A stretch of 64,000 nt of DNA, taken from the NCBI GenBank assembly GCA_028822935.1, contig JAPKCM010000007.1:1-64000 (forward strand), given 5' to 3'. The stretch comes from Akkermansiaceae bacterium (lineage in GTDB: Bacteria; Verrucomicrobiota; Verrucomicrobiia; Verrucomicrobiales; Akkermansiaceae). Below are positions 9,964 to 44,851 of this stretch, in pieces. The number at the start of each line of letters is the position of its first letter. Positions within the stretch are counted from its first letter, which is position 1. The notes under the pieces were generated by a model, which searched no databases, was not told the DNA's origin, and worked only from the letters and a program-made list of their open reading frames with translations. The position numbers and the translations under genes are program-made.

Positions 9964-10050
9964 GCGCGGGTGGCGGAATTGGTAGACGCGCTAGACTAAG
10001 GATCTAGTGTCCGCAAGGACGTGGGGGTTCGATTCCCCCCTCGCGCACCA
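9964..10050 (+). tRNA. tRNA-Leu (anticodon AAG)
   Basis: This 87-base class II tRNA has a GCGCGGG/CTCGCGC acceptor stem, a D arm with GGCGGAATTGGTAGACGC, a long variable arm (GTCC-GCAA-GGAC), a T arm with GGGGGTTCGATTCCCCC and an encoded CCA. The anticodon stem is CTAGA/TCTAG with the loop CTAAGGA, so positions 34-36 read AAG. That is unusual for a bacterial leucine tRNA, where GAG normally covers CUY codons. A34 would be expected to be deaminated to inosine by TadA, which I infer and cannot see here. Confidence 0.95.
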
Positions 10051-10072
10051 TCTGATGTGGTTCTCTCTCAAG

Positions 10073-10116
10073 GCCCCCGCCAAGGGGGCTTCTGAGTTAC
10101 CAGAGATCACCTCTGG
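10073..10116 (+). repeat. Two hairpins between the tRNA genes
   Basis: GCCCCC (10073-10078) pairs with GGGGGC (10084-10089) around a 5-base loop, and CCAGAG (10100-10105) pairs with CTCTGG (10111-10116) around another 5-base loop. Neither is followed by a T tract. They may be processing or attenuating structures in a Leu-Val tRNA transcript, with the first possibly acting as a weak terminator. Confidence 0.4.
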
Positions 10117-10120
10117 ATAG

Positions 10121-10195
10121 GGTCGATTAGCTCAGTGGTAGAGCGCTTGCTTCACACGCAAGATGTCACTGGTTCAAGTCCAGTATCGACCACCA
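10121..10195 (+). tRNA. tRNA-Val (anticodon CAC)
   Basis: This 75-base tRNA has the acceptor stem GGTCGAT/ATCGACC, a D arm with TAGCTCAGTGGTAGAGC, the anticodon stem CTTGC/GCAAG with loop TTCACAC giving CAC (decodes GUG), a T arm with CTGGTTCAAGTCCAG and an encoded CCA. It lies 70 bases after tRNA-Leu on the same strand and may share its transcript. Confidence 0.97.
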
Positions 10196-29497: not shown

Positions 29498-32400
29498 TTA
29501 GTGGAAGTCATGAGATCGGGGCGCGAGACCTCCTTCGATTCCGCTCAGTGGCTCCACGCGTGCGGTGTAGATGGTCGGCTGCTTGCCTTCGCTGATCTGG
29601 ACGTGCCCCGAAACCATGAGGAAGGGCTCGGTGGTGATGGTGAGACGTTGGGCGTGGAAGGTTTTCCGGGGAACGAAGAGGTTGGCGATGCCATATTCGT
29701 CTTCGAGCGAGATGAAACAGTGACCTTTGGCGGTGCCTGGACGCTGACGGCAGATCACGAGGCCGGCAATCTTGACCGGAGTTCCGTGGCTCAGGTGATG
29801 TAAGTCCGCGGAATTCACGCAAATGTCGCCATTCTTCTGTCGCCACAGCCTCATCGGGTGCGGCCCCACGCTATGTCCCTGAATCGCCAAATCGGTGCTG
29901 AGTCGCTCGACGGGAGACATCTGCGCAAGCGGAGCTGGATCCTCGTTCAGCACCGCTCGCGCAAAAAGATCATCCTCGGGGAGCCGCTCAGCCTGCCACA
30001 GGGCGTCCCGGCGGTGTCCCACTTCCGGCAGCGCATTCAGCGCGCCTGCTGCGGCGAGAAGGCGACGTTCTTTTTTGTTGGGGCGCACGCGATTCAGAAA
30101 GTCAGGTAGCGAATCAAACTTGCGCATTACCCGAGTTTCTTCGAGTCGGTCAATCGTCCGCTGCTGCAGTCCTTTAATTCGATTTAAGCCCAAGCGCAGA
30201 GTTCCATCGTCAATCACCGTAGTTTGTCCCTGCGAATTCACCACGCAGCCCGGTTTGCTGCGCACTCCGTGACGTTTTGCATCCTGCATGAGAGTGTTCA
30301 CCGAGTAGAATCCCATCGGCTGGTTGTTGATGAGTCCGCAGTAGAATTCCACTGCGCGGTGCACCTTCAGCCAGCAGGAGGCGTAAGCGATAAGGGCAAA
30401 GGAGATCGCGTGAGATTCGGGGAAACCATAGAGGGCGAAGGATCCGATGGAGTGAATAATCTTTTCCTGCACTTCCTTGGCAATCCCGCGCGCGCTCATG
30501 CGCGCCTCCAATTTTCCGGTGATCGCCACCATGAGTTCATCGGCTCGCTTGCAAGCCATCGCGCGCCGGAGTTCATCGGCTTCAGTTCCAGTGAAGTCGG
30601 CAATCTCCATCGCCATCCGGAGCACCTGCTCTTGGAAGAGAGGAACCCCGAGGGTGCGCTTCAGGATGGGTTCGAATGACGGATGGATGTAATCAATCGC
30701 TTCTCGGCCGGTGCGGCGATTGAGATAGGGGTGCACCAGATCGCCGACGATCGGCCCGGGGCGGATGATGGCCACTTCGATGGCGATGTCGTAGAATTTC
30801 CGGGGCTCCATAATCGGGAGCGTCGCCATCTGTGCCCGGGATTCGACTTGGAAGGTGCCCACGGTGTCGGCACGACAAAGAAGATCGTAAGTGGCCGAAT
30901 CGTCCTTCGGGATCTTTGCGAGATCGATCGGACGACCTCTTTGCTGGCAGATGTAAATGGCGTCCTCCATCGCGGCGAGCATCCCGAGACCGAGGAGGTC
31001 GACCTTCACGATTCCAAGATCTTCACAGTCATTCTTATCCCACTGCAGGATGGTGCGACCCGGCATGGTCGCGGGTTGGAGGGGGACGATGTGATCGAGC
31101 CCATCATCGCAGATCACCATGCCTCCCGAATGCTGGCCGAGGTGCCTCGGGGAATGTAGAATAGCGTGATAAAGATGGAGGAGGGACTTGAAACGAGGGT
31201 GCAAATAACTCACTCCCGAGCGCTCCACGGTGGCCGCGAATTCCATCACTTGGTCCCGAGGGTAGTAATTCGACATCGAGAGCTCCTGGGAGGGGGCGGG
31301 AGAATCCGCTTTTTCGTCGTGCACCTTCGGTGAAGCACACAATTCTGAAAAGCGATTGGCGATCGACTCCGGGAACCCCAGCACTTTGGACATTTCCCGG
31401 AAGGCTGATCTCGGGCGATAGGTGATCACGTTCGCCGTCATCGCAGCGCCCCTTGGAGCATACTTTTGGTAGACGTATTGGATGACCGCTTCCCGTCGTT
31501 CTCCGGAGGGGAAGTCGATGTCGATGTCTGGCCAGGACCGTCGGTTCTCAGAGAGGAAGCGTTCGAAAAGGAGGCCTCCCGCGACAGGATCGACATTGGT
31601 AATTCCCAGCGCGTAGCACACGAGCGAGTTCGCGGCCGAGCCGCGACCCTGGCAGAGGATCCCCTGAGAGCGGGCAAATTGGACCAAATCCCAGACGATG
31701 AGGAAATAGCCAGAAAACCTCAGTTTAAAAATTACAGACAATTCATTTTCAATTTGTTGAGTATGTTTTTTACTTTTTTCTAAATTAAGTAATTTAAGGC
31801 CTTTTTCAGTAGTTGTTCGCAGTAATTCACATTCCTGCTCCGATGTGAGTAACTCCTTATTCACCGGATCTTGATAGGAGGGGAAATGGTAGCCGAGATT
31901 TTCGAGCGTGAATTCACAGCGCTCAGCAAGCCGATAAGCGTGGTCGACAGCATGTGAATAACCTGTAAATAACTTGTGAATCGCGGTGGATGATTTCAGA
32001 TGGCGCTCAGCGTTGCATTCAAGGCGGCGGCCCGCGTCATCGAGGGTGCAGTGTTCACGTAAACAAGTGAAGGAATCAGCTAAAAGGCGATCAGGGCGCT
32101 GGGCATAAAGGGGGGCATTGGTGGCCAAAAGAGGGATTTTTAGGTGGGCGGCCAGATCGGCAAGAATGCTATTCATGCGTTCCTCTCCTCGGCGCTGATG
32201 TCGGTAGAGGGCGATGGAGACATTGTGGGCCCCGAAGGTCCTTTTGAGTGATTCTGCCGCTTCGAGGAGTTGTTTTTTTGTCGGATTCCGGAGACTTTCA
32301 GGAGTGAGGATAACCTGTAAATAGGTGAGAATATCTGGGGGCGGGAGTTCCGGGGCGCAATGTCGGGCGGTGAGGAGTTGGGAGAGTTGCTGATAGCCTT

Positions 32401-32668
32401 TTCGCTGCTCCACGAGGACGGGAAGTTGGGAAAATTGAGGGCCGTCTTGAGGAGACCAATCGGTCAGAGTGGCTCCTACGATGGCTCGGATTCCGAGTTT
32501 CTGAGCGGTTTGATGGGCTCGGGCGGAGCCGTAGAATCCGAGGTGATCGGGGATCGCGATGACCTCATGACCCAGCTCTGCTGCGCGGGTGACAAGGGCC
32601 TCAGGGGTGCTCGCTCCGTGGAGAAAGGAAAAGGAAGATTTTGCGAGGAGTTCCATCGTTTTATCCAT
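29498..32668 (-). CDS. dnaE2: Error-prone DNA polymerase III alpha subunit, DnaE2
   Basis: DnaE2 is the polymerase of the SOS mutasome and carries out translesion synthesis with ImuA and ImuB. The 1056-residue protein has an N-terminal PHP domain (FSFLHGASTPEALVTRAAELG), the catalytic SWPDIDIDFPSGERR with its aspartates, QGRGSAANSLVCYALG, GVPLFQEQVLRMAM, and a C-terminal OB-fold (GLVICRQRPGTAKGHCFISLEDE) typical of DnaE2 rather than DnaE1. It overlaps the imuB stop by 8 bases. An alternative Met lies four codons inside. A markedly AT-rich patch lies at about 31720-31830. Confidence 0.95.
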   Translation of the reverse strand: MDKTMELLAKSSFSFLHGASTPEALVTRAAELGHEVIAIPDHLGFYGSARAHQTAQKLGIRAIVGATLTDWSPQDGPQFSQLPVLVEQRKGYQQLSQLLTARHCAPELPPPDILTYLQVILTPESLRNPTKKQLLEAAESLKRTFGAHNVSIALYRHQRRGEERMNSILADLAAHLKIPLLATNAPLYAQRPDRLLADSFTCLREHCTLDDAGRRLECNAERHLKSSTAIHKLFTGYSHAVDHAYRLAERCEFTLENLGYHFPSYQDPVNKELLTSEQECELLRTTTEKGLKLLNLEKSKKHTQQIENELSVIFKLRFSGYFLIVWDLVQFARSQGILCQGRGSAANSLVCYALGITNVDPVAGGLLFERFLSENRRSWPDIDIDFPSGERREAVIQYVYQKYAPRGAAMTANVITYRPRSAFREMSKVLGFPESIANRFSELCASPKVHDEKADSPAPSQELSMSNYYPRDQVMEFAATVERSGVSYLHPRFKSLLHLYHAILHSPRHLGQHSGGMVICDDGLDHIVPLQPATMPGRTILQWDKNDCEDLGIVKVDLLGLGMLAAMEDAIYICQQRGRPIDLAKIPKDDSATYDLLCRADTVGTFQVESRAQMATLPIMEPRKFYDIAIEVAIIRPGPIVGDLVHPYLNRRTGREAIDYIHPSFEPILKRTLGVPLFQEQVLRMAMEIADFTGTEADELRRAMACKRADELMVAITGKLEARMSARGIAKEVQEKIIHSIGSFALYGFPESHAISFALIAYASCWLKVHRAVEFYCGLINNQPMGFYSVNTLMQDAKRHGVRSKPGCVVNSQGQTTVIDDGTLRLGLNRIKGLQQRTIDRLEETRVMRKFDSLPDFLNRVRPNKKERRLLAAAGALNALPEVGHRRDALWQAERLPEDDLFARAVLNEDPAPLAQMSPVERLSTDLAIQGHSVGPHPMRLWRQKNGDICVNSADLHHLSHGTPVKIAGLVICRQRPGTAKGHCFISLEDEYGIANLFVPRKTFHAQRLTITTEPFLMVSGHVQISEGKQPTIYTARVEPLSGIEGGLAPRSHDFH

Positions 32669-34181
32669 AAATCCCGGTCAGATGCCAATCGTGCGGCGGG
32701 GTGTGAGTGACTTGTAAAAGGAGATTTTTGGGAAGAGCGACATCCCATTCACTTTGCTGCCAGGGCGATTCCCACCAAGAGCCAGAGAGTGGGAAGGGGC
32801 CTCGGAAGTCTTGGATCGTGCCTTGATGAGGACCGCTGAGAAGGGCGAGGGGCTGGAGGTGACGGCCTCGTTTCTCCGAAGCAACGCGGACCACAAGTGG
32901 CGGGCGTTGTCGTTTGAGCGGGAGTCGGGAATAGGCAGGGATCGGCTCTGGCGGGGTTGGGATATTGAGATCTGCTTCCAGTGGGTGGAGGTCGAACTCT
33001 CCGGGGCGATGATTTCCCGCAGGCTGAGGAATTCCGAGTTGGGCGATGCCCACGACGCCGCTGAGTCGTTTTAAGGTGTCGGCGAATTTGTGGGGATCGC
33101 TGAGCCCACGCTGAAAGAGTTGGTGCTGGGCCTGATGCGGGAGGGTTGGGAGGAGGCGGAGGTGAAACTCAGAGATGGGCGCGGGCGCGTGAAAACTGTC
33201 GAGGTGGGTGTGGAGCGAGCGCAGGAGGATATCGGGATCGAGAGTGGGCTCGGATTGGCGGAGTTGGCGGGAATGCGCGGCGCCGTTTTCGAAGGAAAGA
33301 ACGAGATGAAGAGCTTCTGCGGCCCGTTGCTGGCTCGCGAGCCGTTGGCAGAGGGCCTGGAGGATACGTCGAGCCATGAAGAGAAGTGGATCGACGCCTT
33401 CCACGGGAGGTTCGAAATGATGTGAGGTCTGATAGTCCTGTCGGGGCCGCGAGAGTTTGAGGAGGCGGTGATGCTTGCCCGTTAAAACATCGTGGAGCCA
33501 GGCGAGCTCGGGACCTAAGCGCTCGCCGAGGCCTTGTCGGGGGAGGTCGATAAGATCGCCCAAGGTCCTGAGCCCCCAGAGCTGTAAAAGATCGGCCTGC
33601 GGCAACGGGAAGGCGCGGTTTCGCCTCAGGAGATCGAGTGGAAGGTCGTAAATCGATGGTGGCTCGCTGAGGACGGAGAGGCTCGCTTTGGGTTGGTAGC
33701 GCAGCGAGGAGGAGGTTTGGCAGGAGAGCGCGGCCAAGTGCGCGAGGTCGGGCGTGTCGGCGAGACTGAGATTGAGCGGGAGTCCCAGTTGGCGAGAGAT
33801 TTCGAGTGCTTGATGGAGCCATTCCTCGCGGGAAGCGAAGAGGACGGTGGAGAGATCGAGGAGGAAGGTGTCGGCTCCGGTGTCTTCGTAATCCGGGGTG
33901 AAAGTATCGAGGAGTGCAAGCGCTTCGGCCCGAGCTTGTGTTTCCAGCTTGGAATCGGCGTCGTAGAGCGTGAGCTCGGGACAGCGGGCAAGGGCACGGG
34001 TCGTGTTCATTCCGATGCTGAGCTGGAAGCTGTTGGCGATTTCATTGAGGTGGAGCAGCGAGGACTTTTCCCGCTTCCCTGAGGAAAGAAGGGCGGCCGG
34101 CAGACTGGAATCGATCTGCTCACGTGCCAGCAGGCAGGTGAGCGGGAGTCCGGGGAGATGGAGCGCAGCGTAGTAAGACAT
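32661..34181 (-). CDS. imuB: ImuB, Y-family polymerase-like mutasome protein
   Basis: ImuB bridges the mutasome to the beta clamp; it resembles a DinB polymerase but is catalytically inactive. The 506-residue protein begins MSYYAALHLPGLPL, where a catalytic polymerase would have a DMDxFFASVE block, consistent with loss of catalysis. Family landmarks are ANSFQLSIGMNTTRALARCPEL, LLDLSTVLF and WGLRTLGDLIDLPRQGLGERLG. The C-terminal third is proline-rich. Coding overlaps dnaE2 by 8 bases. imuA lies 6 bases upstream. Confidence 0.92.
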   Translation of the reverse strand: MSYYAALHLPGLPLTCLLAREQIDSSLPAALLSSGKREKSSLLHLNEIANSFQLSIGMNTTRALARCPELTLYDADSKLETQARAEALALLDTFTPDYEDTGADTFLLDLSTVLFASREEWLHQALEISRQLGLPLNLSLADTPDLAHLAALSCQTSSSLRYQPKASLSVLSEPPSIYDLPLDLLRRNRAFPLPQADLLQLWGLRTLGDLIDLPRQGLGERLGPELAWLHDVLTGKHHRLLKLSRPRQDYQTSHHFEPPVEGVDPLLFMARRILQALCQRLASQQRAAEALHLVLSFENGAAHSRQLRQSEPTLDPDILLRSLHTHLDSFHAPAPISEFHLRLLPTLPHQAQHQLFQRGLSDPHKFADTLKRLSGVVGIAQLGIPQPAGNHRPGEFDLHPLEADLNIPTPPEPIPAYSRLPLKRQRPPLVVRVASEKRGRHLQPLALLSGPHQGTIQDFRGPFPLSGSWWESPWQQSEWDVALPKNLLLQVTHTPPHDWHLTGIYG

Positions 34182-34187
34182 TTTATC

Positions 34188-34799
34188 TTAGGAATGGACG
34201 ACCTCGCGGGCCTCTTCGGAGTTTCTTGTTCTCAGCTGGGGGTTTTCCAGTTCGAGGTTTTGGAGAGTAAAAGTAGAACTCAGAGTGAAGCGACTGTGCG
34301 GCGAGGGGAGGCAAGGTCGGGGCGTGAGCGCGAGGAGGGAGGCTCCAGAAGCGCGGGCTTCGGTCCGGAAACGGTGCCAGATCGCGTTGGGAATCCGCTT
34401 CAGTTCACGGGCGGAAGTTAGATGGAGATCGAGGAGGACGAGCGGTAGATTGCCATCGCGGAGGAGGAGGTCGGTGCACTGGATCGCCTGCATCGCTTTC
34501 CGGCAACGGATCCAGAAGAGGCGTTGGCATTTTTCCGAGCCGTAGGATGCCGGATCAAAGGAATCGTGGCCATCGATGAGCGCGAGGGGGAGATCTCGTG
34601 AGCACTCCAAGAGTTGGGAGATCATCAAGGAAACTCCTGAGCAAAGCCCAGGCGCGACGAGTTCGTGCAAGGTCCCGGCAGGAAAAGAAAGCGAGAGCGG
34701 ATCCAAGTCGGCATCCTCAGGCACGGCGACTCCACGATGCGCTCCAGGAAATTGTTCCTGGAGCTGCTTACGGAGATCGGTAATTTGCGAGATCCTCAA
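34188..34799 (-). CDS. imuA: ImuA, RecA-like mutasome protein
   Basis: ImuA is a RecA-fold protein, also called SulA-like, that activates the ImuB/DnaE2 mutasome. At 203 residues it has the N-terminal LRKQLQEQFPGAHRG, the LSFPAGTLHELVAPG block typical of ImuA, and RLFWIRCRKAMQAIQCTDLLL. A canonical Walker A is not visible. The only sensible in-frame start is TTG at 34797-34799, because no upstream ATG is in frame before a stop at 34821-34823. The TTG sits just 3 bases beyond the predicted transcription start region, so the messenger would be nearly leaderless. An ATT at codon 6, nine bases after a GAGG, is an alternative. Confidence 0.82.
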   Translation of the reverse strand: MRISQITDLRKQLQEQFPGAHRGVAVPEDADLDPLSLSFPAGTLHELVAPGLCSGVSLMISQLLECSRDLPLALIDGHDSFDPASYGSEKCQRLFWIRCRKAMQAIQCTDLLLRDGNLPLVLLDLHLTSARELKRIPNAIWHRFRTEARASGASLLALTPRPCLPSPHSRFTLSSTFTLQNLELENPQLRTRNSEEAREVVHS

Positions 34800-35133: not shown

Positions 35134-36141
35134 CTAGCCGACTTCTTGGATCGTTTTAAGGATCCGGGAAGCGATGGCGTATGGGTCGCCCTGAGAGTTT
35201 GGACGGCGATCTTCGAGGTAACCTTTCCAATCGTTCTTGGCGAATCCGTGAGGAACGCGGACGGAAGCACCACGGTCGGCGATTCCCCATGAGAACTTGT
35301 CGATTGACTGGGTCTCGTGGAGGCCGGTGAGGCGCATGTCGTTATCGGGTCCGTAGACCGCGATGTGCTCCATGGTGTTCTTTTCGAACTGGGCCATGAG
35401 CTTGTCGAAGTATTCCTTACCGCCTTCGTCACGAAGTTTATCGGTGGAGAAGTTTGCATGCATTCCGGAACCATTCCAGTCGCCCTTAAGCGGCTTGCAG
35501 TGGTAGTTCACATCGACAGCATACTCTTCGCAGAGACGCTCAAGAAGGAAGCGAGCAACCCAGATCTGGTCTGCGGCGCGCTTGGAACCTTTTCCGAAGA
35601 CCTGGAATTCCCACTGGCCCATCGCCACTTCAGCATTGATGCCCTCGTGGTTGATGCCGGCGTAGAGGCAGAGGTCGAGGTGCTCGTCAACAATCGCGCG
35701 GCCGATGTCGCCCACGTTCTTGTAGCCCACACCGCAGTAGTAACCGCCTTGTGGCTCAGGATAGCCGCCCTTCGGGAAGCCGAGGATCCTTCCGCCTTTT
35801 TCGAGGAAATATTCCTGCTCGAAGCCGAACCATGCGCCCTCGTCATCAAGGATATCGGCGCGGGCGTTGGATGGGTGAGCGGAGCCGTCTGGAAGCATGA
35901 CTTCGCACATGACGAGGAAGCCATTCTCACGGGTGCCGTCTGGATAGAGAGCAACAGGCTTGAGGACGCAGTCAGAGTCACCACCTTCAGCTTGCTGAGT
36001 GGAGGAACCATCGAAGCCCCATTCAGGGAGCTGCTCGAGAGTGGGTGCGTCATCAAATTCCTTGATGCAGCATTTGGTGCGGAGATTTGGAACGGGCGTG
36101 TAGCCGTCCAGCCAGATGTAATCGAGTCGGTATTTAGCCAT
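35134..36141 (-). CDS. glnII: Type II glutamine synthetase
   Basis: This is a eukaryote-like glutamine synthetase II making glutamine from glutamate, ammonia and ATP. At 335 residues it is much shorter than GSI (about 470). It has MAKYRLDYIWLDGY, LPEWGFDGSSTQQAEG, PNARADILDDEGAWFGFEQEYFL, NHEGINAEVAMGQWEFQV, the ATP-site GSGMHANFS, and a GIADRGASVRVP segment where the GSI counterparts differ. It occurs in some rhizobia, actinomycetes, planctomycetes and others. It lies 126 bases downstream of the kinase-like/PP2C gene, with a strong hairpin at 36188-36211 between them, and has its own terminator. Confidence 0.95.
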   Translation of the reverse strand: MAKYRLDYIWLDGYTPVPNLRTKCCIKEFDDAPTLEQLPEWGFDGSSTQQAEGGDSDCVLKPVALYPDGTRENGFLVMCEVMLPDGSAHPSNARADILDDEGAWFGFEQEYFLEKGGRILGFPKGGYPEPQGGYYCGVGYKNVGDIGRAIVDEHLDLCLYAGINHEGINAEVAMGQWEFQVFGKGSKRAADQIWVARFLLERLCEEYAVDVNYHCKPLKGDWNGSGMHANFSTDKLRDEGGKEYFDKLMAQFEKNTMEHIAVYGPDNDMRLTGLHETQSIDKFSWGIADRGASVRVPHGFAKNDWKGYLEDRRPNSQGDPYAIASRILKTIQEVG

Positions 36142-36267: not shown

Positions 36268-37473
36268 CTAGATCCTTGAGAGATCAGCGACAACGAGGGT
36301 GGTGTCATCTCTGTGCGCGTTGTCCAGTGATCGCTTTAAAAGTGCTTGGGTAATCTCTTGAGCGGAGCCTTCTTGCGAGAGTTCGTCGACAATCACTTTA
36401 TCCCAGAGTCCATCGACGAGGCCATCCGAGCAAAGCATGAGTCGGGCTCCGTCTCCCAAGGTCTCTGATCCGGTTTTCGGGAAAATAGTGCGGCCGCTTC
36501 CACCAAGAACTTCGGTGAGAACAGAGCGACGCGGGTGCTGGCGATAAGCGTATTCGCTGAGCTGGCCTTGCTGATATTGATGCCAGGCGATGCAGTCGTC
36601 CTTGGTGAGCTGGTTGACCTCTTCATTCTGGAGGAGGAAGAGGCGGGAATCGCCCACATGAGCCCAGTGGAGAGTTTCAGGAGTGATCCAGGCGAGAGTG
36701 AGGGTGGCACCCATGCCGGTGGCGTTATCATTATTGGCCATCATCTCGATAAGACCCTGATGAGCATTCACGAGAAGATCGCCAAGGAGTTTGTCGACAT
36801 CTCCACCAGAGGTGAGGCCATGATAGAGGGCATCCGCTTCATGACGGACGTAGTTGGTGATGAGACGAGAGGCGAACTCTCCAGCCTGACGACCGCCCAT
36901 GCCATCGGACACGGCAAGGACAAGATGCTCGGGATCGAGAAGTGCTTCTCCGCTGTCCGCGAGCACACGGACACCCTTCGGGCAAACGGCGAGGACGATG
37001 GAAGAGTCGTCATTTCCATCGTGACCGGTGCCTTGCTCAGTGAGCACCTGCCAGTTCGTGCGCCAAACATTAGTTCGATGCGTTTCTTCTGTTGGGAGCG
37101 GTAGGATTTCGGCGAGTTCGAAGTCGATGAGGCAAAATCGGCCCAGTTTTGCCGAGTAGGTGACGTTTCGAGGCTCGGGGTCGTCGTGGCGAATGCCGTA
37201 GCACTCTTCGAGTTCATTAAAGAGAGCGGTGGCCTTTTCCTTCGTTAAGAGGGGAGCCGGGGCTCCGCAGTTTGTCGTGATGATGGTGAGGGTGGATTCA
37301 TCGGACCCGAGAAGTCGGGGGACATTGGGACAGTCGCGTTCTTCGAGGGCTTGCAGGACTTTGATCTCGTTGGCAAAACGGAGATCGGAATCGGTTCCAC
37401 GGAACTGCTTGTGGACATTTCCTTGAAAATCGATGCGGACAAGGGCGCGGATTCCGTCTTTCAATTCCTTCAC
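36268..37473 (-). CDS. Kinase-like domain fused to PP2C-type phosphatase
   Basis: The 401-residue protein has two parts. Residues about 1-130 look like a small protein-kinase-like fold: Glu36 in FANEIKVLQAL as a possible helix-C Glu, HDDPEPRN at 96-103 matching the kinase HxDxxPxN catalytic loop (D98, N103), and IDFELAE with D117 in place of DFG. Residues about 145-401 form a PP2C metal phosphatase: GNDDS, AVSDGMGG (D190), GMGATL, AHVGDSRLFLL (D275), LMLCSDGLVDGLW and HRDDTTLVV. PP2Cs reverse Ser/Thr phosphorylation. The neighbours glnII and rex do not explain the target. I know no named family with this exact fusion. Confidence 0.85.
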   Translation of the reverse strand: MKELKDGIRALVRIDFQGNVHKQFRGTDSDLRFANEIKVLQALEERDCPNVPRLLGSDESTLTIITTNCGAPAPLLTKEKATALFNELEECYGIRHDDPEPRNVTYSAKLGRFCLIDFELAEILPLPTEETHRTNVWRTNWQVLTEQGTGHDGNDDSSIVLAVCPKGVRVLADSGEALLDPEHLVLAVSDGMGGRQAGEFASRLITNYVRHEADALYHGLTSGGDVDKLLGDLLVNAHQGLIEMMANNDNATGMGATLTLAWITPETLHWAHVGDSRLFLLQNEEVNQLTKDDCIAWHQYQQGQLSEYAYRQHPRRSVLTEVLGGSGRTIFPKTGSETLGDGARLMLCSDGLVDGLWDKVIVDELSQEGSAQEITQALLKRSLDNAHRDDTTLVVADLSRI

Positions 37474-37579: not shown

Positions 37580-38263
37580 GTGGGAAAGGATAAAATTCCA
37601 GGAAAGACGATCTATCGTTTGTCGATTTATCATCGCTGTTTGAGACGTCTCGAAGATGCTGAAAAATCGACCATTTCTTCTTCCGCTCTCGCGAAAGCTG
37701 CCGGGGTGAATCCTGCCCAGCTTCGACGAGACCTGACTTATCTGGGAACCTTCGGAACTCGAGGCTTGGGGTATTCTGTTTTAGAACTGACGACTGCCAT
37801 CGCTGAGATCTTGGGAAGGGCCCATTTGCAGCCTGTGGTTTTGATGGGTGCTGGAAATTTGGGAGCGGCGCTTCTCCGTTATGAGGGATTCCACAAGGAG
37901 GGATTTGAAGTAGTGGCAGCATTTGATGCAGCTCCTGACAAAGTGGCTCGCCGTGGAATTTCCATCCCGGTGTTTGATGTGAAAGAGATGCCGCAAATGG
38001 TCAAAAAACAGAGCATCCGGCTCGCGATTCTTTCAGTTCCGGTTGAGCACGCTCAGTCGGTGACAAATGACTTAGTAAAAGCAGGAATCCAGGGAATTCT
38101 GAGTTTTTCGCCAACCGTTTTGCAGGTTCCTAAAGAGGTCACAGTGAACAGCGTGGACCTCGCTCTGGAACTCGAGCAGGTTAGTTTGTTTGTGAAGTCG
38201 GCAGATCAAGCAGTTCCCGACCTGCGATCGGAGCTACCTCTTTCCGAGAAACCCAGCCCTTAG
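37580..38263 (+). CDS. rex: Redox-sensing transcriptional repressor Rex
   Basis: Rex represses fermentation and respiratory genes and leaves DNA when the NADH/NAD+ ratio rises. At 227 residues, the N-terminal winged helix spans about 10-80 (SSSALAKAAGVNPAQLRRDLTYLGTFGTRGLGYSV) and the Rossmann domain about 85-210 holds VVLMGAGNLGAALL, VVAAFDAAPDKV and the C-terminal family segment NSVDLALELEQVSLFV. I see no Rex-type TTGTGAANNNNTTCACAA box upstream. It overlaps the convergent batD gene by 83 bases. Confidence 0.96.
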   Translation: MGKDKIPGKTIYRLSIYHRCLRRLEDAEKSTISSSALAKAAGVNPAQLRRDLTYLGTFGTRGLGYSVLELTTAIAEILGRAHLQPVVLMGAGNLGAALLRYEGFHKEGFEVVAAFDAAPDKVARRGISIPVFDVKEMPQMVKKQSIRLAILSVPVEHAQSVTNDLVKAGIQGILSFSPTVLQVPKEVTVNSVDLALELEQVSLFVKSADQAVPDLRSELPLSEKPSP

Positions 38264-40457
38264 AGCCACCCGGAAGTTCGATGAAACTCCAGTCACCGCT
38301 AATACCCTCGATTTTTCCGATACTTCCGAGAGGGATTATTCTTCCTGTTCCGGCTCCCTCAAAGGGCGCGTCGCGAAGAGCTTGTTCTGTCGTCACGATA
38401 GAAAGTTCCTTGAGAGGTTCAAAACTGATATCCCGAGGGTAGTAAAACTCGGCGAGCAGCCAGAGGGCTCCGGTGGCCAAGGTGATCGGAATTAGAAAAA
38501 AAGCCCACCGTCGGACTCTCATCACCAGAACGAAGAGCGACATTCCCAGCCCCCATAAAAAGGCGATGCCACAGTGGTGGAATAACGAGCGAGGGAGGAG
38601 GGTGATCATTTCCATGCCTCTGGGCTCCGCCAGACGAATCGAACCAGCGCTGTGGAGGAGAGGGGTCAGAGGTTCACTTTTATCGCCGTAGGCTTGATAG
38701 CGGTAGTAGTAGAGAATGGCGGCTGCGGTATTTCCGCGATCTTCCTCTTCGAGGGCCAAATTGTAAAAAGCCTCGGGGGTTGGGTTTGCGGTGATCTGCT
38801 CGATTAGTTCACCTCGTGTTTCGGATGCGTTGAGAAGCGATGGACTCAGGATGAGAGCGAGCAAGACGAGGGGAGCGAGCTGCCGGAGAACGGCAACGAG
38901 GGAACTTTTTTCCTTAGGAAGAATCAGCTCCGCTTTGGAGTCGGGATTGAAGCAGATTTTGTCTCGAGTTTTGATGATTTCGCTCGCGCCTTCGGGAAGT
39001 TGTTTTTTGTCACTCCAGCGATCCAGAAATCGGGAGGCACGGCGGAAGACTTCGGTTCGATCTTTCGAGGAGGTCACGTCATTTAGTTCCCTTGCGAACT
39101 CTCTTTGGGAGAGCGACTGTTTTTGTTTTTGCGCAAATTTGGGGCGAAGTGCCTTGATCAGCAGGTAGAGCGAAAGGAGTGCGGGGAAGATTTGCCAGAA
39201 CCAAAGTGGTTGTGAAACGGCGACCGCCGGGATGACGTAGGAGCCGGAAGTGAGAGGCGCGCTTTTACTCCCTTTCTCCGTGGGTGAAGCGGTGACAGGG
39301 TTGGGATTTTTAGAAGCGGATACGGTGAGCGGAATTCCCGGAGTTAGGGAACTGCTATATTGGGAAAGGATGGGATCGAAGTAAACGAGCTCATAAGGAG
39401 GGAGCCGATCGGTGACTTGATTAGGTCGAACCACTTGGGAGAACTCCACTGTGCCGGAGAGAGTGCGGCGGTCGGTTCCCTGGGGTTTCTTGGTGATATC
39501 GAATTGTTTAAAGTGGCTCGCTTCATCGAGGAACCTCGGAGGTCCGAGTTGGTCAAGGTTTCCTGATCCGGTGATTTGAAGTTCTACCGTGAGAGGGTCG
39601 CCGACTTCGATTTCGCGGCCGGCGACACTCGCTGAGAGCCGGAAGTTACCGATCGCTCCTGCGAATCCTGGAGGGGAGGGGCTGGGGAGTTCTTTGACAT
39701 TAAGGAGAATCTCATCAAAGAGGCATTTTATTTGATATCGTTCCCATGAAATATTTCCCCGGCCCGAAGAGCTGCGGGTGACCAATGGTTCTACGGTGCC
39801 GGGCCCAATTTTCACCGGGCCGGTCTTCAGTGGAGTGACGGCGCTGCGATAGGTGACGGCGGAAAAAGATTGACCATTTTGCTGAAGTCCTCCGGCGCTC
39901 TTGACGGGATCAAAACGCCACATCACCGCTTCATTTTTCTCAATTTCGGCATAACGCGCATTTACGAGCTGGAGGCGATCGGACAAGTAGAGGCGCGCTT
40001 CGATGGTCTGCGTCTCACCGAGATAGGGAGTGAGGTTGTTGATGAAAATGGTCGAGTAGTAAGGGTAGTTCTGCCCTCCAATTGAGATTGAATTCTTTTT
40101 GAGTTGATTCCTCGATGCGACGGTAAGAGTGAGGGGATTGCTGACAATCTGCCCTATCCTGAAAGGAAGGATGGTGAAAGTTCCACTCTTGATGGAGGAA
40201 ACGGCATAAGTAAATTTGACCGAGACATCTCTGTTCACAATGTGGCGGCTGTATCTTTCCTGCCGAAGAGTGAGTGGGCTGACGTTAGGCTGGGTGGGCC
40301 ATCCGGTGACGTTGATGTTTCGCACCGTAATGGTGACGAGTGCCACCTCTCCTTCAACGACAAAAGAGCTACTCAGCTCGGCTTGAAGCGAGGGAGTCTG
40401 GCCCCAAAGAGATTGGGCCAGGAGCAAAAAAAGAAGGGCGCGTAACATGCTAATCAA
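38181..40457 (-). CDS. BatD-like oxygen tolerance protein
   Basis: This is the last gene of the first Bat operon, 758 residues. The signal peptide is followed by an N-terminal BatD domain (LQAELSSSFVVEGEVALVTITVRN, repeated beta-sandwich modules), a transmembrane segment near 425 and a second at about 540, then TPR-like helices (FYNLALEEEDRGNTAAAILYYYRYQA) and a C-terminal SH3-like segment (IGKIEGISGDWSFIELPGGSKGWV). The Bat proteins are linked to aerotolerance in Bacteroides, and their mechanism is not settled. It overlaps rex by 83 bases at the 3' end and starts 15 bases after the BatB/C gene. Confidence 0.88.
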   Translation of the reverse strand: MISMLRALLFLLLAQSLWGQTPSLQAELSSSFVVEGEVALVTITVRNINVTGWPTQPNVSPLTLRQERYSRHIVNRDVSVKFTYAVSSIKSGTFTILPFRIGQIVSNPLTLTVASRNQLKKNSISIGGQNYPYYSTIFINNLTPYLGETQTIEARLYLSDRLQLVNARYAEIEKNEAVMWRFDPVKSAGGLQQNGQSFSAVTYRSAVTPLKTGPVKIGPGTVEPLVTRSSSGRGNISWERYQIKCLFDEILLNVKELPSPSPPGFAGAIGNFRLSASVAGREIEVGDPLTVELQITGSGNLDQLGPPRFLDEASHFKQFDITKKPQGTDRRTLSGTVEFSQVVRPNQVTDRLPPYELVYFDPILSQYSSSLTPGIPLTVSASKNPNPVTASPTEKGSKSAPLTSGSYVIPAVAVSQPLWFWQIFPALLSLYLLIKALRPKFAQKQKQSLSQREFARELNDVTSSKDRTEVFRRASRFLDRWSDKKQLPEGASEIIKTRDKICFNPDSKAELILPKEKSSLVAVLRQLAPLVLLALILSPSLLNASETRGELIEQITANPTPEAFYNLALEEEDRGNTAAAILYYYRYQAYGDKSEPLTPLLHSAGSIRLAEPRGMEMITLLPRSLFHHCGIAFLWGLGMSLFVLVMRVRRWAFFLIPITLATGALWLLAEFYYPRDISFEPLKELSIVTTEQALRDAPFEGAGTGRIIPLGSIGKIEGISGDWSFIELPGGSKGWVSRKEVAPIAGRELLDLPTSQTN

Positions 40458-40472
40458 TGAAAGAGGGGCTGA

Positions 40473-42428
40473 TTACCAATCCTTTTTAGGACGGCGAAGA
40501 ACACGACGCTGAGAGCTTGGGGGACGTTTGCCGAAGTCAGCTTGTTGATTAAGGATACGGCGGGCCCGCTCTTCAGCGGTCTCTTCCTTGGGAGGTTTTT
40601 CTTCCGGTTGAAGGTTCGCCATTTCTTCCTCCTCGCCCTTTTCTTGATCGGATTCAGATGCCTCGGACTCTTGGGGATCTGATTCCTTCTGGCCGTCCTT
40701 CTTTTCTGATTTGTCAGGCTGACCTTCTTTGCCCTCTTCTTTTTTAGGGTCACCCGCCTCTCCATCTTTTGGATCCCCGTCTTCGGGCTTGGGATCTCCT
40801 TTCTCCTTGGGGTCATCGGACTGTTCCTCCTTGGGTTTGCCTTCTTGATCCTTCGGATCGTCTGCGGCTTTCTCGGAGTCTTCTTGATCGTCCTTTTTTG
40901 ACTCCTCTTCGTCCGATGATTCTTCTTTGTCGTCTTTTTCTTCCGACTCGTCTTTGTCTTCCTGCTCCTCGGATTGATCTTTCTTGAGGAGAGATTTGAC
41001 GAAGGAGAGATTTTCCTCGGCCTCTTTAGTGGGCTCTATTTTGAGACTTTCCTCATAGTGCTTCACTGCACCTCCCCAAGCTTTCTGCCGTTCGGCTTGA
41101 TCCTCATGAGAAGAGCCGAGGTAGAAGAGAGAGTTCGCCAACCCGTAGTGAGCATCTTGTCGGATCTCGGTATTGCTTGCTAGGAGCGCTTGGCTGTAGG
41201 ACGAGACGGCTGACCCCCAGAGCTTGGCTTTGGAGGCGGAGGCGCCGGAAGCGAGGTGGAGTTGGGCACTTCTTTCACCGGTGGCCGATTCCGCCGCTTC
41301 GTAGAAATGTTCGTGAGCTGCTTCATGATCACCGCGTTCGTTCGCGGCTTTTCCTTGGTAGATTTCCCTGAGTTCTCCAGCCTGCGCTTGGTCCACCGAA
41401 GAAAAGAAGACCATGATCGCGAGACAGGCTGCGATCGGGGCTGAAGGGAGACGACTGACAATGACTGAACTCATAAGAAATAGGAGGCCTGGAAGAAGAA
41501 ACCATTGATAGACCGGTTTCGCAATCCGTTGGTGATTTCCTTCTTGCTGAAAAACATCCATGCGATCAACGGCGGCGTTGAGGGTTTGAAGAAAATCACC
41601 GCCTGCGCCCTTTGAATAAACACCTCCTGTCTTCGCCGCAATGGTGCGGAGGGATTCTTCTTTGAGCTGGCTGACGACCCGATTGTTTCGTCGATCAACG
41701 AAGAAGCCGTCGCGCATCCGAGGATCCCTAATGAAGTCACCTTTTTCAGACCCAAAACCGAGTGAGTAAATGAAGACCCCTTGGCCCTTCGCGCGCCGTG
41801 CCGCGGACTCAATTCCGGATGAATGATCTTCGCCGTCGCTAAAGACGACCATGACATTATTGCGTTGCTTCGTTTCGACGAGAACCTCGACGGCATCCTT
41901 GAGTGCCTGAGAGAGATCGGATCCACCCAGAGGAAGGTCGAGCGGATTGAGTTGGCTGATAGTCTGGGTGAGGAAGGTATGATCGATGGTGAGCGGAACG
42001 GTGATCTGAGTTTCACCGGAGAAGATAAGGAGACCGATCCGGTCATTGGGGAAACGGTCCACGATTTCAAGGGCAGCAGCTTTCGCGGCATCAAGCCGAC
42101 TCCCTGAGCCGACATCTTCGGTGAGCATGCTTTGAGAAATGTCCATGCAGAGCAATAGGTTACGGCCTTCATTGCGGGTCTCGATCCATTCTTCTCCCGC
42201 TTCCGGCATCGCCAGTGAAGTCACCAAGAGCAGGAGGCCTAGCATCGCCAAAGCAAGTCCAACAAAGTGCTTCGTTACCGAACGTGGGTGACTGAGGCGC
42301 TTTCTGAGTCTTTCTGCAATGAGTTGTTTCCAAGCTTTACCACGTCGCTTCCAGATAAATATCTGAAGAACGATCACCAGGGGGATCGCGATCAGCAAAA
42401 GAAACCAGAGAGGCACGGCGAAACTCAT
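40473..42428 (-). CDS. BatB-BatC fusion: vWA domain plus TPR and charged tail
   Basis: This protein has 651 residues. A membrane N-terminus (about 5-25) is followed by a vWA domain (about 80-270) with a MIDAS motif (DISQSMLTEDV), and a second transmembrane segment near 320-345. TPR repeats occupy about 360-480 (AANERGDHEAAHEHFYEAAE, SYSQALLASN, HYEESLKIEPTKEAEENLSFV), then a 130-residue tail of Asp, Glu and Lys and a final RRILNQQADFGKRPP segment typical of BatC. In Bacteroides BatB and BatC are usually separate, so this is a merged form. It starts 3 bases after batA. Confidence 0.88.
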   Translation of the reverse strand: MSFAVPLWFLLLIAIPLVIVLQIFIWKRRGKAWKQLIAERLRKRLSHPRSVTKHFVGLALAMLGLLLLVTSLAMPEAGEEWIETRNEGRNLLLCMDISQSMLTEDVGSGSRLDAAKAAALEIVDRFPNDRIGLLIFSGETQITVPLTIDHTFLTQTISQLNPLDLPLGGSDLSQALKDAVEVLVETKQRNNVMVVFSDGEDHSSGIESAARRAKGQGVFIYSLGFGSEKGDFIRDPRMRDGFFVDRRNNRVVSQLKEESLRTIAAKTGGVYSKGAGGDFLQTLNAAVDRMDVFQQEGNHQRIAKPVYQWFLLPGLLFLMSSVIVSRLPSAPIAACLAIMVFFSSVDQAQAGELREIYQGKAANERGDHEAAHEHFYEAAESATGERSAQLHLASGASASKAKLWGSAVSSYSQALLASNTEIRQDAHYGLANSLFYLGSSHEDQAERQKAWGGAVKHYEESLKIEPTKEAEENLSFVKSLLKKDQSEEQEDKDESEEKDDKEESSDEEESKKDDQEDSEKAADDPKDQEGKPKEEQSDDPKEKGDPKPEDGDPKDGEAGDPKKEEGKEGQPDKSEKKDGQKESDPQESEASESDQEKGEEEEMANLQPEEKPPKEETAEERARRILNQQADFGKRPPSSQRRVLRRPKKDW

Positions 42429-42431
42429 GGA

Positions 42432-43436
42432 CTAGGGGAAAGGCGGGGGATTGAAGGCCATCATAAGGAAGTATCCCACGAGTGCGATGACGCTGGGAGC
42501 GAGGAACCACGGGTAATATTCTTTCACTTGAATCCAGCTGGAGCGCACAACTTCAGTTTTCTCCAAGTCATCGATACTTTTAAAAGCGTCACGGAGATCA
42601 GAAATATCTTTGGCCCGGAAGAATTCTCCACCGGTGGTGGATGCAATTTTGATCAAGGTATCTTCATCGTATTCCTGCCGGGCCACTCCCTGAAGCCGGC
42701 CTTCTTCGCTTCCGATGGCGATGGTGTAGATTTTGATTCCGAGATCGTTTGCCAACTCGGCAGCTTGTTCGGGAGAAATCTTTCCGGAGTTATTGGCGCC
42801 GTCGGTGACGAGGACGACAATTTTACTCTTCGATTCTTTTTGGTTGTCGAGTCGGATGCTGGCGGCATTGATAGCACTTCCGATGGCGGTTCCACCTTCT
42901 TCAGGGCGACCATTGAAGAGGATGATGTCGCCGATCTTGCTCTTCAAAATTTCGTGCTCAAGTGTCAAAGGAGCAACGGTGTAAGGACGACCGGAAAAAG
43001 AGACGAGGCCGATTCGATCATCGGCACGTTGCTTGATGAAGGTTAGAATGACGTCGCGAGCCGCATCAATCCTTCGCTGAGGGCGCATGAAGCGTGGATC
43101 GGAGGACTGAAAATCCCGCGTGTTCATGGATTGGGAAATATCGAGGGCAACCAGGATATCGATTCCGCTAGCCGTTCGTGAGCTCCTTTCGTTTTGCCAC
43201 TGTGGTCGAGCGAGAGCAAAGATCGCGGGGATCAGGATGAAAGGTAGAATGAGGGGTGCAAGTTTGAAGGGACGATCCTTCGACTTATATCCCAAGGTTC
43301 CCAGAACACGAAGAGTAGGATAGATGACCCAGCTTTGAGCCCCTTGCTTGTATCCAAACCAGATGAGAGCCGGAAGGGCCAGAAGGAGCAAGAGCCACCA
43401 AGGTTGCGCAAAGACAAAGTGATCGGAAGCGCTCAT
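42432..43436 (-). CDS. BatA-like vWA membrane protein
   Basis: This 334-residue protein has an N-terminal membrane segment (WWLLLLLALPALIWFGY), a second hydrophobic stretch at about 57-75 (LAPLILPFILIPAIFAL), a vWA domain with the metal-binding LDISQSMNTRDFQS (about 93-106) and TDGANNSGKIS, and a final C-terminal TM. BatA is the canonical partner of BatB, as suggested by adjacency. Its start overlaps the stop of the DUF4381 gene by 4 bases (ATGA-type), indicating translational coupling. Confidence 0.9.
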   Translation of the reverse strand: MSASDHFVFAQPWWLLLLLALPALIWFGYKQGAQSWVIYPTLRVLGTLGYKSKDRPFKLAPLILPFILIPAIFALARPQWQNERSSRTASGIDILVALDISQSMNTRDFQSSDPRFMRPQRRIDAARDVILTFIKQRADDRIGLVSFSGRPYTVAPLTLEHEILKSKIGDIILFNGRPEEGGTAIGSAINAASIRLDNQKESKSKIVVLVTDGANNSGKISPEQAAELANDLGIKIYTIAIGSEEGRLQGVARQEYDEDTLIKIASTTGGEFFRAKDISDLRDAFKSIDDLEKTEVVRSSWIQVKEYYPWFLAPSVIALVGYFLMMAFNPPPFP

Positions 43437-43957
43437 GCTGGGGTCTCCGAAGATTGGGATTGGCGGATCTCGTTTAGCACAGTGGACGCTTGTTCGAGGA
43501 ATTGAAGTGCGCGCTGGTCATCGACCTGGGATCGAGCGTATTTCGCGGAACTGAGATCGAGGAGAAAGGAGCGCACGGAAGAAGGGACGCGATTCAGGCT
43601 TTCCAGACGCACGGCCATTTCTTCATCAGTTTCGTAGAGAGCTGGATCGTGGAGGACGTGTGAGAGGCATTCTCGCATGATGAGTGAAACCGCGGATGCG
43701 AATCGGCCGATGGGGAGTGAGGTAACCTGATCCGTCAAGTTACCCAAGCACTGTTGAGCGAGGATATATTGATCAGGACCAAATGCCACTGGCTGGGCCT
43801 TCTTGGTGCAGAGACGGCGGATTAGGCAGACGATAATCGCGATAATCGCGAGCGACACCACGGCGATAGCGACCCAGACCCATAAAGGAGTGCCCGGGAG
43901 GTAATCCTCCGGGGCTCCGATATCGTGGGGAAGCGCGGGCAGTTCTTCGTCTGGCAT
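43433..43957 (-). CDS. DUF4381-like small membrane protein
   Basis: This 174-residue protein occupies the slot between the DUF58 and batA genes, where a DUF4381 protein is common in Bat/MoxR operons. One membrane segment lies at about 26-48 (LWVWVAIAVVSLAIIAIIVCLI), followed by a cytoplasmic helical domain with SAVSLIMRECLSH and a segment (ALYETDEEMAVRLESL) typical of the family. It starts 3 bases after the DUF58 stop and overlaps batA by 4 bases. Role unknown. Confidence 0.8.
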   Translation of the reverse strand: MPDEELPALPHDIGAPEDYLPGTPLWVWVAIAVVSLAIIAIIVCLIRRLCTKKAQPVAFGPDQYILAQQCLGNLTDQVTSLPIGRFASAVSLIMRECLSHVLHDPALYETDEEMAVRLESLNRVPSSVRSFLLDLSSAKYARSQVDDQRALQFLEQASTVLNEIRQSQSSETPA

Positions 43958-43960
43958 TGT

Positions 43961-44851
43961 TTAGTTTTTTCGCCGGGCGCGGCGCTGGAAAAGTTGATGG
44001 AGTGAGGGGAGGTAGTCTTCAGTGGTAGAAATCTCCACGTGATCGATGCCTTGCTTGTTGAAGAAAGCGGTAAGTCCCTCCCGATATCTTCGCGAAAGTT
44101 TCGAAAGTCCCATTTGGGCATTCGGATTCGAGGTGTTTACGACCGTGGAAAAGCCCGATTCGGGATCTTTGAACTGAACTTTCCCAACTGCAGGGATATT
44201 CTGCTCTAGCGGATCGATGAGAGAGAGGGCGACCACGTCATGCTGCCGGGCCAGCGACCCCAGCGTTTTTTCGAAGCCCCAGTCAATGAAGTCGGAGATG
44301 AAGAAGATCAGCGATTTTCTCTTGAGTGACTGATGGAGGAATTCGCACGCGGAAGAGATCGAGGTTGTCGGATCTTTGGGTTTCGTGGTGAGAACTTCTC
44401 TAATCGCTCTGATCACGTTTTTGCCACCCTTTCTGGGAGGGAGGTAGATGTCGGGCCCCTTGGAAAAGAGGAGAAGTCCTACTTTGTCTCCATTGTAGCG
44501 CGCGCTAAATCCCATGAGAGCAGTAAGTTCAGCGGCTCGTTCGCGCTTAGAGAGTCCTTCACTTCCGAAATCAGTTGAACCAGAGATATCGACGACGATG
44601 ATTACTGAGAGTTCACGCTCTTCCTTAAATTTGCGAATGTAGGTTTCATGCATCCTTGCCGTGACATTCCAATCAATGAAGCGGATTTCATCACCTGGCT
44701 GATATTCCCGGAATTCATCGAAATCGAGTCCCGCACCCTTGAAAGAAGAGTGATATTCACCCGAAAAGGTCTCACTTGCTAAGCGGCGGGCACGAATCTC
44801 CAGCCGGCGCACTTGCCGCATCATCTCTTCGATGCTTTCCTCGTCTGTCAT
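43961..44851 (-). CDS. DUF58 domain protein (first copy)
   Basis: This 296-residue protein of the DUF58/vWA-like group is associated with MoxR ATPases. It contains SEGEYHSSFKGAGLDFDEFREYQPGDEIRFIDW (seen as FSGEYHSSFKG through FDEFREYQPGDE), then RKFKEERELSVIIVVDISGS with a MIDAS-like DISGS. It begins the five-gene Bat-like operon (44851 to 38181), all with gaps of 15 bases or fewer. No MoxR gene is adjacent. A second DUF58 protein lies at 50179-51072 beside the moxR gene. Confidence 0.92.
   Translation of the reverse strand: MTDEESIEEMMRQVRRLEIRARRLASETFSGEYHSSFKGAGLDFDEFREYQPGDEIRFIDWNVTARMHETYIRKFKEERELSVIIVVDISGSTDFGSEGLSKRERAAELTALMGFSARYNGDKVGLLLFSKGPDIYLPPRKGGKNVIRAIREVLTTKPKDPTTSISSACEFLHQSLKRKSLIFFISDFIDWGFEKTLGSLARQHDVVALSLIDPLEQNIPAVGKVQFKDPESGFSTVVNTSNPNAQMGLSKLSRRYREGLTAFFNKQGIDHVEISTTEDYLPSLHQLFQRRARRKN

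Follow-up and report, generated by a model that had tools for sequence, protein, structure and literature searches.

An Akkermansiaceae genome encodes, in one protein, a kinase-like domain of ~125 aa followed by a PP2C phosphatase domain, and the next gene specifies a type II glutamine synthetase (GSII). On balance, we favour the reading that the kinase/PP2C pair reversibly phosphorylates GSII, in the place of GlnE and fed by GlnD and PII. The wider proposal, that a class-wide family of such kinases forms with PP2C a GSII switch which replaces GlnE as the last GlnD-PII step and was fused more than once, is plausible but in our estimate falls somewhat short of an even chance.

The fused gene and its two domains

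The window, that is the whole stretch of 64,000 nucleotides analysed here, contains the fused mini-kinase/PP2C gene on the minus strand at 36268..37473 (401 aa). Its GTG start at 37473 fits the N-terminus conserved in relatives, and a search of its own genome with the window protein gave a single match. A first-pass annotation had described a kinase-like part and a complete PP2C domain in a single chain, and this description holds, the former being recognised by its predicted fold and the latter by Pfam and NCBIfam. All motifs quoted there could be located: HDDPEPRN at residues 96-103, IDFELAE from I116, SDGMGG at 189-194, VGDSR at 273-277, CSDGL at 348-352 and HRDDTTL at 387-393. A model of the full chain shows both domains folded (pLDDT 76, pTM 0.60), residues 103-112 being poor.

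The PP2C domain (residues 139-401; 36271..37059, minus strand) is, judged from its sequence, complete beyond doubt. N154, D156, D190, D275, D350 and D389 are invariant in 86/86 aligned rows, and we take the aspartates among them to be the metal ligands; the 86 rows, like the 92 loci discussed below, hold two repeats (L109 = L022, L110 = L014). Pfam PP2C_2 matches at 1.3e-12. The NCBIfam Stp1 model matches at 1.2e-43, yet its 149.3 bits lie below the curated 230, so that the domain does not belong to the Stp1/IreP equivalog (NF033484).

The mini-kinase domain (residues 1-129; 37087..37473, minus strand) corresponds by homology to a separate gene in many relatives. On the same strand lie the VAIK-type lysine K22 (37408..37410), the helix-C glutamate E36 (37366..37368) within a predicted helix 29-45, the catalytic loop HDDPEPRN (37165..37188), in which D98 is the H-x-D aspartate, and DFE (D117-E119; 37117..37125), which replaces DFG with an invariant Glu in the place of the glycine. 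In 72 aligned rows, window included and with one repeat (L026 = L002), K22, E36, H96, D98, R102, N103, D117, F118 and E119 never vary, and a second alignment of 62 rows gave the same invariant catalytic set. Since every catalytic residue is invariant, the mini-kinase is by its residues not decayed, and the decayed kinase that the first-pass annotation had offered as an option can be dropped. The residues expected of the PKL fold, namely the VAIK Lys, the helix-C Glu, HxD, the catalytic-loop Asn and the DFG Asp, are present in 72/72 rows, whereas a Hanks-type Ser/Thr kinase would have the DFG glycine, an activation segment and later C-lobe helices. The conserved region stops a few residues past DFE, and because nothing is conserved beyond this point the activation segment and the later C-lobe helices must be regarded as missing.

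Structure prediction for the N-terminal domain returned a kinase fold, not a structure unlike a kinase. The AlphaFold model of the mini-kinase, built from four sequences, is a minimal kinase fold (pLDDT 83.6, pTM 0.80). The predicted chain begins with strands and helix C (29-45), continues through two strands into helix E (78-92) and ends with the catalytic loop and a further two strands. The top match of this predicted model was the archaeal RNA kinase Ark1, both in Foldseek (E 9e-6) and in VIA-align (Z 10.1, rmsd 4.2 over 120 residues), followed in these searches by Bud32/PRPK, RIO and ordinary kinases; that a family is missing from the lists of fold matches carries no weight. As a single sequence, residues 1-129 matched no family above cut-off. 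Residues 1-137 alone matched Pfam APH at 7e-4, the whole protein at 0.015 and below the gathering score, and an NCBIfam search gave Bud32 at E 0.017. Profile searches with the 62-row alignment led to kinase families: at E<=0.1 all 62 rows matched APH (best 3e-8), 30 matched Kdo kinase, 19 choline kinase and 3 Pkinase, and PHROG 3297, labelled 'kinase', was matched by 45 (best 1.5e-11). A PDB profile search found Cdc7 (7.6e-4).

A kinase/PP2C module beside glutamine synthetase

At many loci of relatives, the two domains are encoded separately by adjacent genes. The 92 loci chosen for comparison divide into 45 split and 41 fused ones and 6 that have no PP2C next to the kinase; a frameshift or annotation artefact was rejected on the strength of the fused ORFs. 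The first-pass view of a fused protein was thus incomplete, since the fusion recurs in relatives as one state of a two-gene module, and the link to glutamine synthetase had been missed. In 288 genomes of the order, the matches listed include at least 77 uninterrupted full-length fusions in 75 genomes, and at least 13 further ones broken by one or two stops. On a midpoint-rooted kinase+PP2C tree of 86 loci, from which the six loci without PP2C were omitted, the fused/split state changes 5 times by parsimony, versus a mean of 29 for shuffled labels.

The search for the mini-kinase covered genomes of the phylum as well as phages, plasmids and viral contigs. A phage or plasmid origin was rejected, because tblastn with the kinase of one relative found no match in either collection. 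With the full window protein, no place covering 80% of it was found in the phage or plasmid collections, and its matches there fall within the PP2C half or close to it (best 20 of 21 phage and best 20 of 173 plasmid records). Phages do encode similar mini-kinases, 133-175 aa among the matches listed and most of them unnamed (PHROG 3297; BFVD A0A6G8R208, A0A514TUS8).

The GSII gene (35134..36141, minus strand; PF00120, PF03951) is the next gene downstream on the same strand. It encodes a glutamine synthetase (GS) of ~335 aa that has both a beta-grasp and a catalytic domain, closely resembles rhizobial GlnII and is 75% identical to a Rhizobium GS that we take to be GlnII. GSII lies within 1.5 kb of the kinase at 65/79 loci, upstream and divergent at 57 and downstream and codirectional at 8. 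Clustering of ORFs around 43 loci identified GSII as the only neighbour that keeps returning beside the module (26 loci); no cluster beyond kinase/PP2C and GSII occurred at more than five, and one five-locus cluster looks antisense to GSII. One genome (G129) carries two GSIIs, 72% and 50% identical to the window GSII, each beside its own fused kinase-PP2C (L066, L067) and in two different arrangements. At L093 and L095 a third arrangement is seen, in which GSII lies upstream of the fused gene and runs in the same direction; L093 was taken from the viral collection, although its remaining genes look chromosomal by eye.

Against GSII as the partner stand the 14/79 kinase loci without adjacency, eight of them in genera g3 and g6. 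At these eight (8/8) the kinase overlaps or follows mgtE, identified by Pfam in L057 and by tblastn in the others, and in 7/8 of the same genomes, but not in one, PP2C stands divergent beside GSII, a point in favour of GSII. The kinase behind mgtE could have another role, and a tie to the Mg or ATP-Mg state is possible. Stand-alone kinases linked to mgtE in g3 and g6 were recorded at L053, L055, L057, L059, L060, L061, L135, L136 and L137. At the remaining six, the kinase-PP2C pair and GSII are each intact, but they lie in separate places: neither partner of the pair accompanies GSII within the region covered, and the kinase lies with PP2C elsewhere (6/6). In family f2, 10/13 fetched fused loci show no GSII in the stretch covered, some having short flanks. 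In six genomes of the phylum with GSII only, neither kinase nor PP2C was found near GSII.

In the window, the divergent upstream neighbour of the fused gene (37580..38263, plus strand; PF06971, PF02629), which we take to be a Rex-like redox regulator, is kept at only a small number of related loci (L014, L015, L017, L018, L023 and L067); it probably stands outside the module. Behind it follows an operon for three VWA/DUF58 proteins (38181-44851, minus strand), presumably of the Bat type and not conserved beside the module. We took the VWA genes upstream as a possible sign of a TerY-type triad, a candidate that was rejected because VWA neighbours do not recur. A probable mutagenesis cassette (29498-34799, minus strand) presumably encodes a DnaE2-like polymerase, an ImuB-like Y-family protein and a small ImuA-like protein, this small third protein having no Pfam match. 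Two tRNA genes lie in tandem at 9964-10192.

Kinase and GSII also occur together across genomes. The phylum sample of 387 genomes contains 78 with the kinase (E<=1e-3), all of which also have GSII (E<=1e-30, found in 86 genomes), whereas 8 have GSII only, 301 neither and none the kinase only; the kinase-bearing f2 genomes are covered by the order sample instead. In the 288 genomes of the order, both genes were found in 217, GSII only in 11, the kinase only in 4 (these being 53-89% complete) and neither in 56. For the 225 order genomes of at least 90% completeness and at most 5% contamination, these numbers are 173, 3, 0 and 49. The three genomes with GSII only (G039, G283, G284) have rather low GSII scores of about 1e-127, which a few kinase genomes nevertheless equal or undercut. 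GSII without kinase (11/288 in the order, 8/387 in the phylum) is the counter-case. A GSII-only genome, G232, holds a kinase fragment at a contig edge, and when 26 genomes lacking a kinase match were searched with a profile, only this fragment and a weak partial match in G308 were found. Both genes are absent from 44/44 genomes of genus g2, which is probably Akkermansia, and from five f2 genomes of genera g20, g33 and g34, and therefore they were probably lost jointly at least twice within the order. The co-occurrence is largely shared ancestry.

The nitrogen cascade and the candidate substrates

In enteric bacteria, GlnE is the adenylylating and deadenylylating enzyme of type I glutamine synthetase. 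We surveyed PII, GlnD and GS in 42 chosen genomes (31 with the kinase, 5 with GSII only, 6 of g2). PII and GlnD are both present in 31/31 kinase genomes and both missing from 6/6 g2 genomes, while the GSII-only genomes have PII in 4/5 and GlnD in 0/5. GlnE, recognised by two strong PF03710 domains (best 189 bits), was searched in 66 genomes, 54 of them with the kinase, and found in 2/54 kinase genomes (G400 and G581). At E<=0.001, PF03710 matched in 29/66 genomes, in 21 of them above the curated cut-off. The other 27 matches are single and weak (<=43 bits) and lie in long frames; 15 of the 27 were covered by the GlnD search as well, and in all of these (15/15) GlnD was found in the same frame, so that such matches look like GlnD where checked. 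Neither the window protein nor the window genome has a PF03710 match. The two genomes with GlnE, both of family f16, also have the only type I enzymes (GSI) above 450 bits among the 42 genomes, and two GS control systems appear to stand there side by side.

Since genomes with GSII and the module mostly have GlnD and PII but no GlnE, the module may be placed in the seat of GlnE. We propose that the minimal kinase and PP2C would work in opposite directions on one substrate, as a bifunctional switch, and that the GSII encoded next door is its most likely substrate. The glutamine-sensing pair of GlnD and PII would feed this switch, PII or glutamine would control it, and phosphorylation would lower GS activity, the switch taking the place of GlnE. 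The steps that we infer are the phosphorylation of protein, GSII as its target, the direction in which GS activity would change and the control by PII or glutamine. The earlier idea that a phosphate may be both added and removed by the same protein gains support as a reading. GSII is favoured by the repeated fusion and adjacency, by co-occurrence, by the presence of GlnD and PII and by the rarity of GlnE. GSII is the sole GS found in 21/31 kinase genomes, but as the window genome and nine more carry further GS it is not always the only available target. A search for phosphosites yielded no GSII-specific site; the class-conserved T233, Y244 and Y308 seemed to set the class apart in a comparison with six GSII-only rows, yet they also occur in rhizobial GlnII, for which no annotated kinase or PP2C was found within 4 kb.

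Phosphorylation of glutamine synthetases is on record elsewhere. A 2015 review states that plant GS is phosphorylated and that the responsible kinases were still to be identified (PMC4515544); B. subtilis GlnA is described as phosphorylated by PrkC (PMC6213207), and a phosphoproteome of S. thermophilus is stated to contain GlnA (PMC6593474).

Co-occurrence does not single out GSII, because PII and GlnD co-occur as well. The main rival to GSII as substrate is Ser49 of PII: kinase and PP2C would act on the T-loop as in cyanobacteria, and GSII would merely be a neighbour of the same regulon. We consider this unlikely. PII is present in all 31 kinase genomes and 0/6 g2 genomes, and its T-loops carry in 20/20 cases the residues that we take, by alignment to known PIIs, to be Ser49 and Tyr51. 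One genome (G568) has its PII gene directly beyond kinase-PP2C (C7:19548-19865), but this is the only such case among 31 genomes, compared with GSII near the kinase at 65/79 loci. Moreover, GlnD, the usual modifier of PII, is present in 31/31 kinase genomes, and PII occurs without the kinase in 4/5 GSII-only genomes surveyed. The cyanobacterial precedent itself points both ways, as the account in PMC4285133 has PII dephosphorylated by the PP2C PphA, with a PII kinase not known in 2015, but also mentions Ser49 as conserved in some cyanobacterial PIIs that are unphosphorylated.

The kinase domain could instead be a nucleotide-binding sensor without phosphate transfer, which reads the ATP state and controls PP2C, in cis if fused, while another kinase modifies the target; we regard this as quite unlikely. 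The very small size of the domain, the exchange of the DFG Gly for Glu and the absence of the activation segment and later C-lobe helices fit such a sensor, as does the better conservation of the kinase half than of the PP2C half (e.g. 60% vs 39% in L054). However, a pure sensor would not need H96, D98, N103 and D117, which are invariant in 72/72 rows. DFE alone is no proof of an inactive enzyme, since ArkI carries it too and is reported to be active with DFE and with HGQ instead of HRD (PMC9095486). We hold it very improbable that RNA or a small molecule is the substrate of the mini-kinase, in the manner of Ark1 or of APH, Kdo and choline kinases, with a separate role for PP2C. The nearest fold is indeed the RNA kinase Ark1, the best Pfam matches are small-molecule kinases and DFE is described for ArkI (PMC9095486), but the domain is repeatedly fused with a phosphoprotein phosphatase, and its conserved part ends after DFE with no ArkI-like C-terminal region.

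Known kinases and phosphatases and the control of GSII

Within a GSII switch the module would resemble GlnE in its place in the GlnD-PII-GS cascade and in the possibility of two opposed activities in one chain. It differs from GlnE in lacking any sequence match, in that it would add phosphate and not AMP, and in pairing with GSII and not GSI. Ark1/ArkI (COG2112) is the closest solved fold by the model-based Z of 10.1, and it is likewise small and carries DFE. Its chains of 171-173 aa are longer than the ~125 aa of the mini-kinase, and ArkI is described with HGQ and with C-terminal helices bearing a YKR motif (PMC9095486), whereas the mini-kinase keeps an invariant H-x-D and has no conserved region after DFE, which sets it apart from COG2112. 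Bud32/PRPK and RIO, the next named fold matches, are compact kinases as well, but the matched chains have at least 189 aa, and by sequence Bud32 was matched only at E 0.017. With PHROG 3297, a profile of 160 positions, the mini-kinase aligns over nearly its whole length (4-121 of 160 for L047), but that family consists of phage proteins whose role is not given.

The pairing with a phosphatase has parallels too. PrkC/PrpC and Stp1-type systems share a Stp1-like PP2C, the pairing of kinase and phosphatase and, for PrkC, the phosphorylation of GlnA; the mini-kinase is not of the Hanks type, and its PP2C partner stays below the NCBIfam Stp1 cut-off. Fusions of PP2C and kinase in one bacterial protein were described for Pseudomonas (Krupa and Srinivasan 2005, PMC1262709), where according to that account PP2C is N-terminal and the kinase an ordinary Ser/Thr/Tyr kinase homologue. 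The first-pass statement that no named family with this order was known is incomplete in that the combination had been described in 2005 in reverse order (PMC1262709), whereas in the window the kinase precedes PP2C. Among open-licence papers, judged by titles and the beginnings of abstracts, no published kinase/PP2C-GSII system was recognised. GSII sequences are placed in Verrucomicrobia by a 2010 study, in whose text a term search does not find the word 'kinase' (PMC2978018); the searched text of a microbial kinome survey does not contain 'Verrucomicrob-' (PMC1821047).

Glutamine synthetase is a textbook example of an enzyme under covalent control, in which the classical bacterial GlnE acts on the type I enzyme. 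To our knowledge, control of bacterial GSII after its synthesis has been little described, and we know of no kinases smaller than this ~125-aa family. A tiny kinase and a PP2C beside GSII would be a directly testable candidate for GSII control, and the mini-kinase may indicate how little of the kinase fold evolution can keep with all catalytic residues intact.
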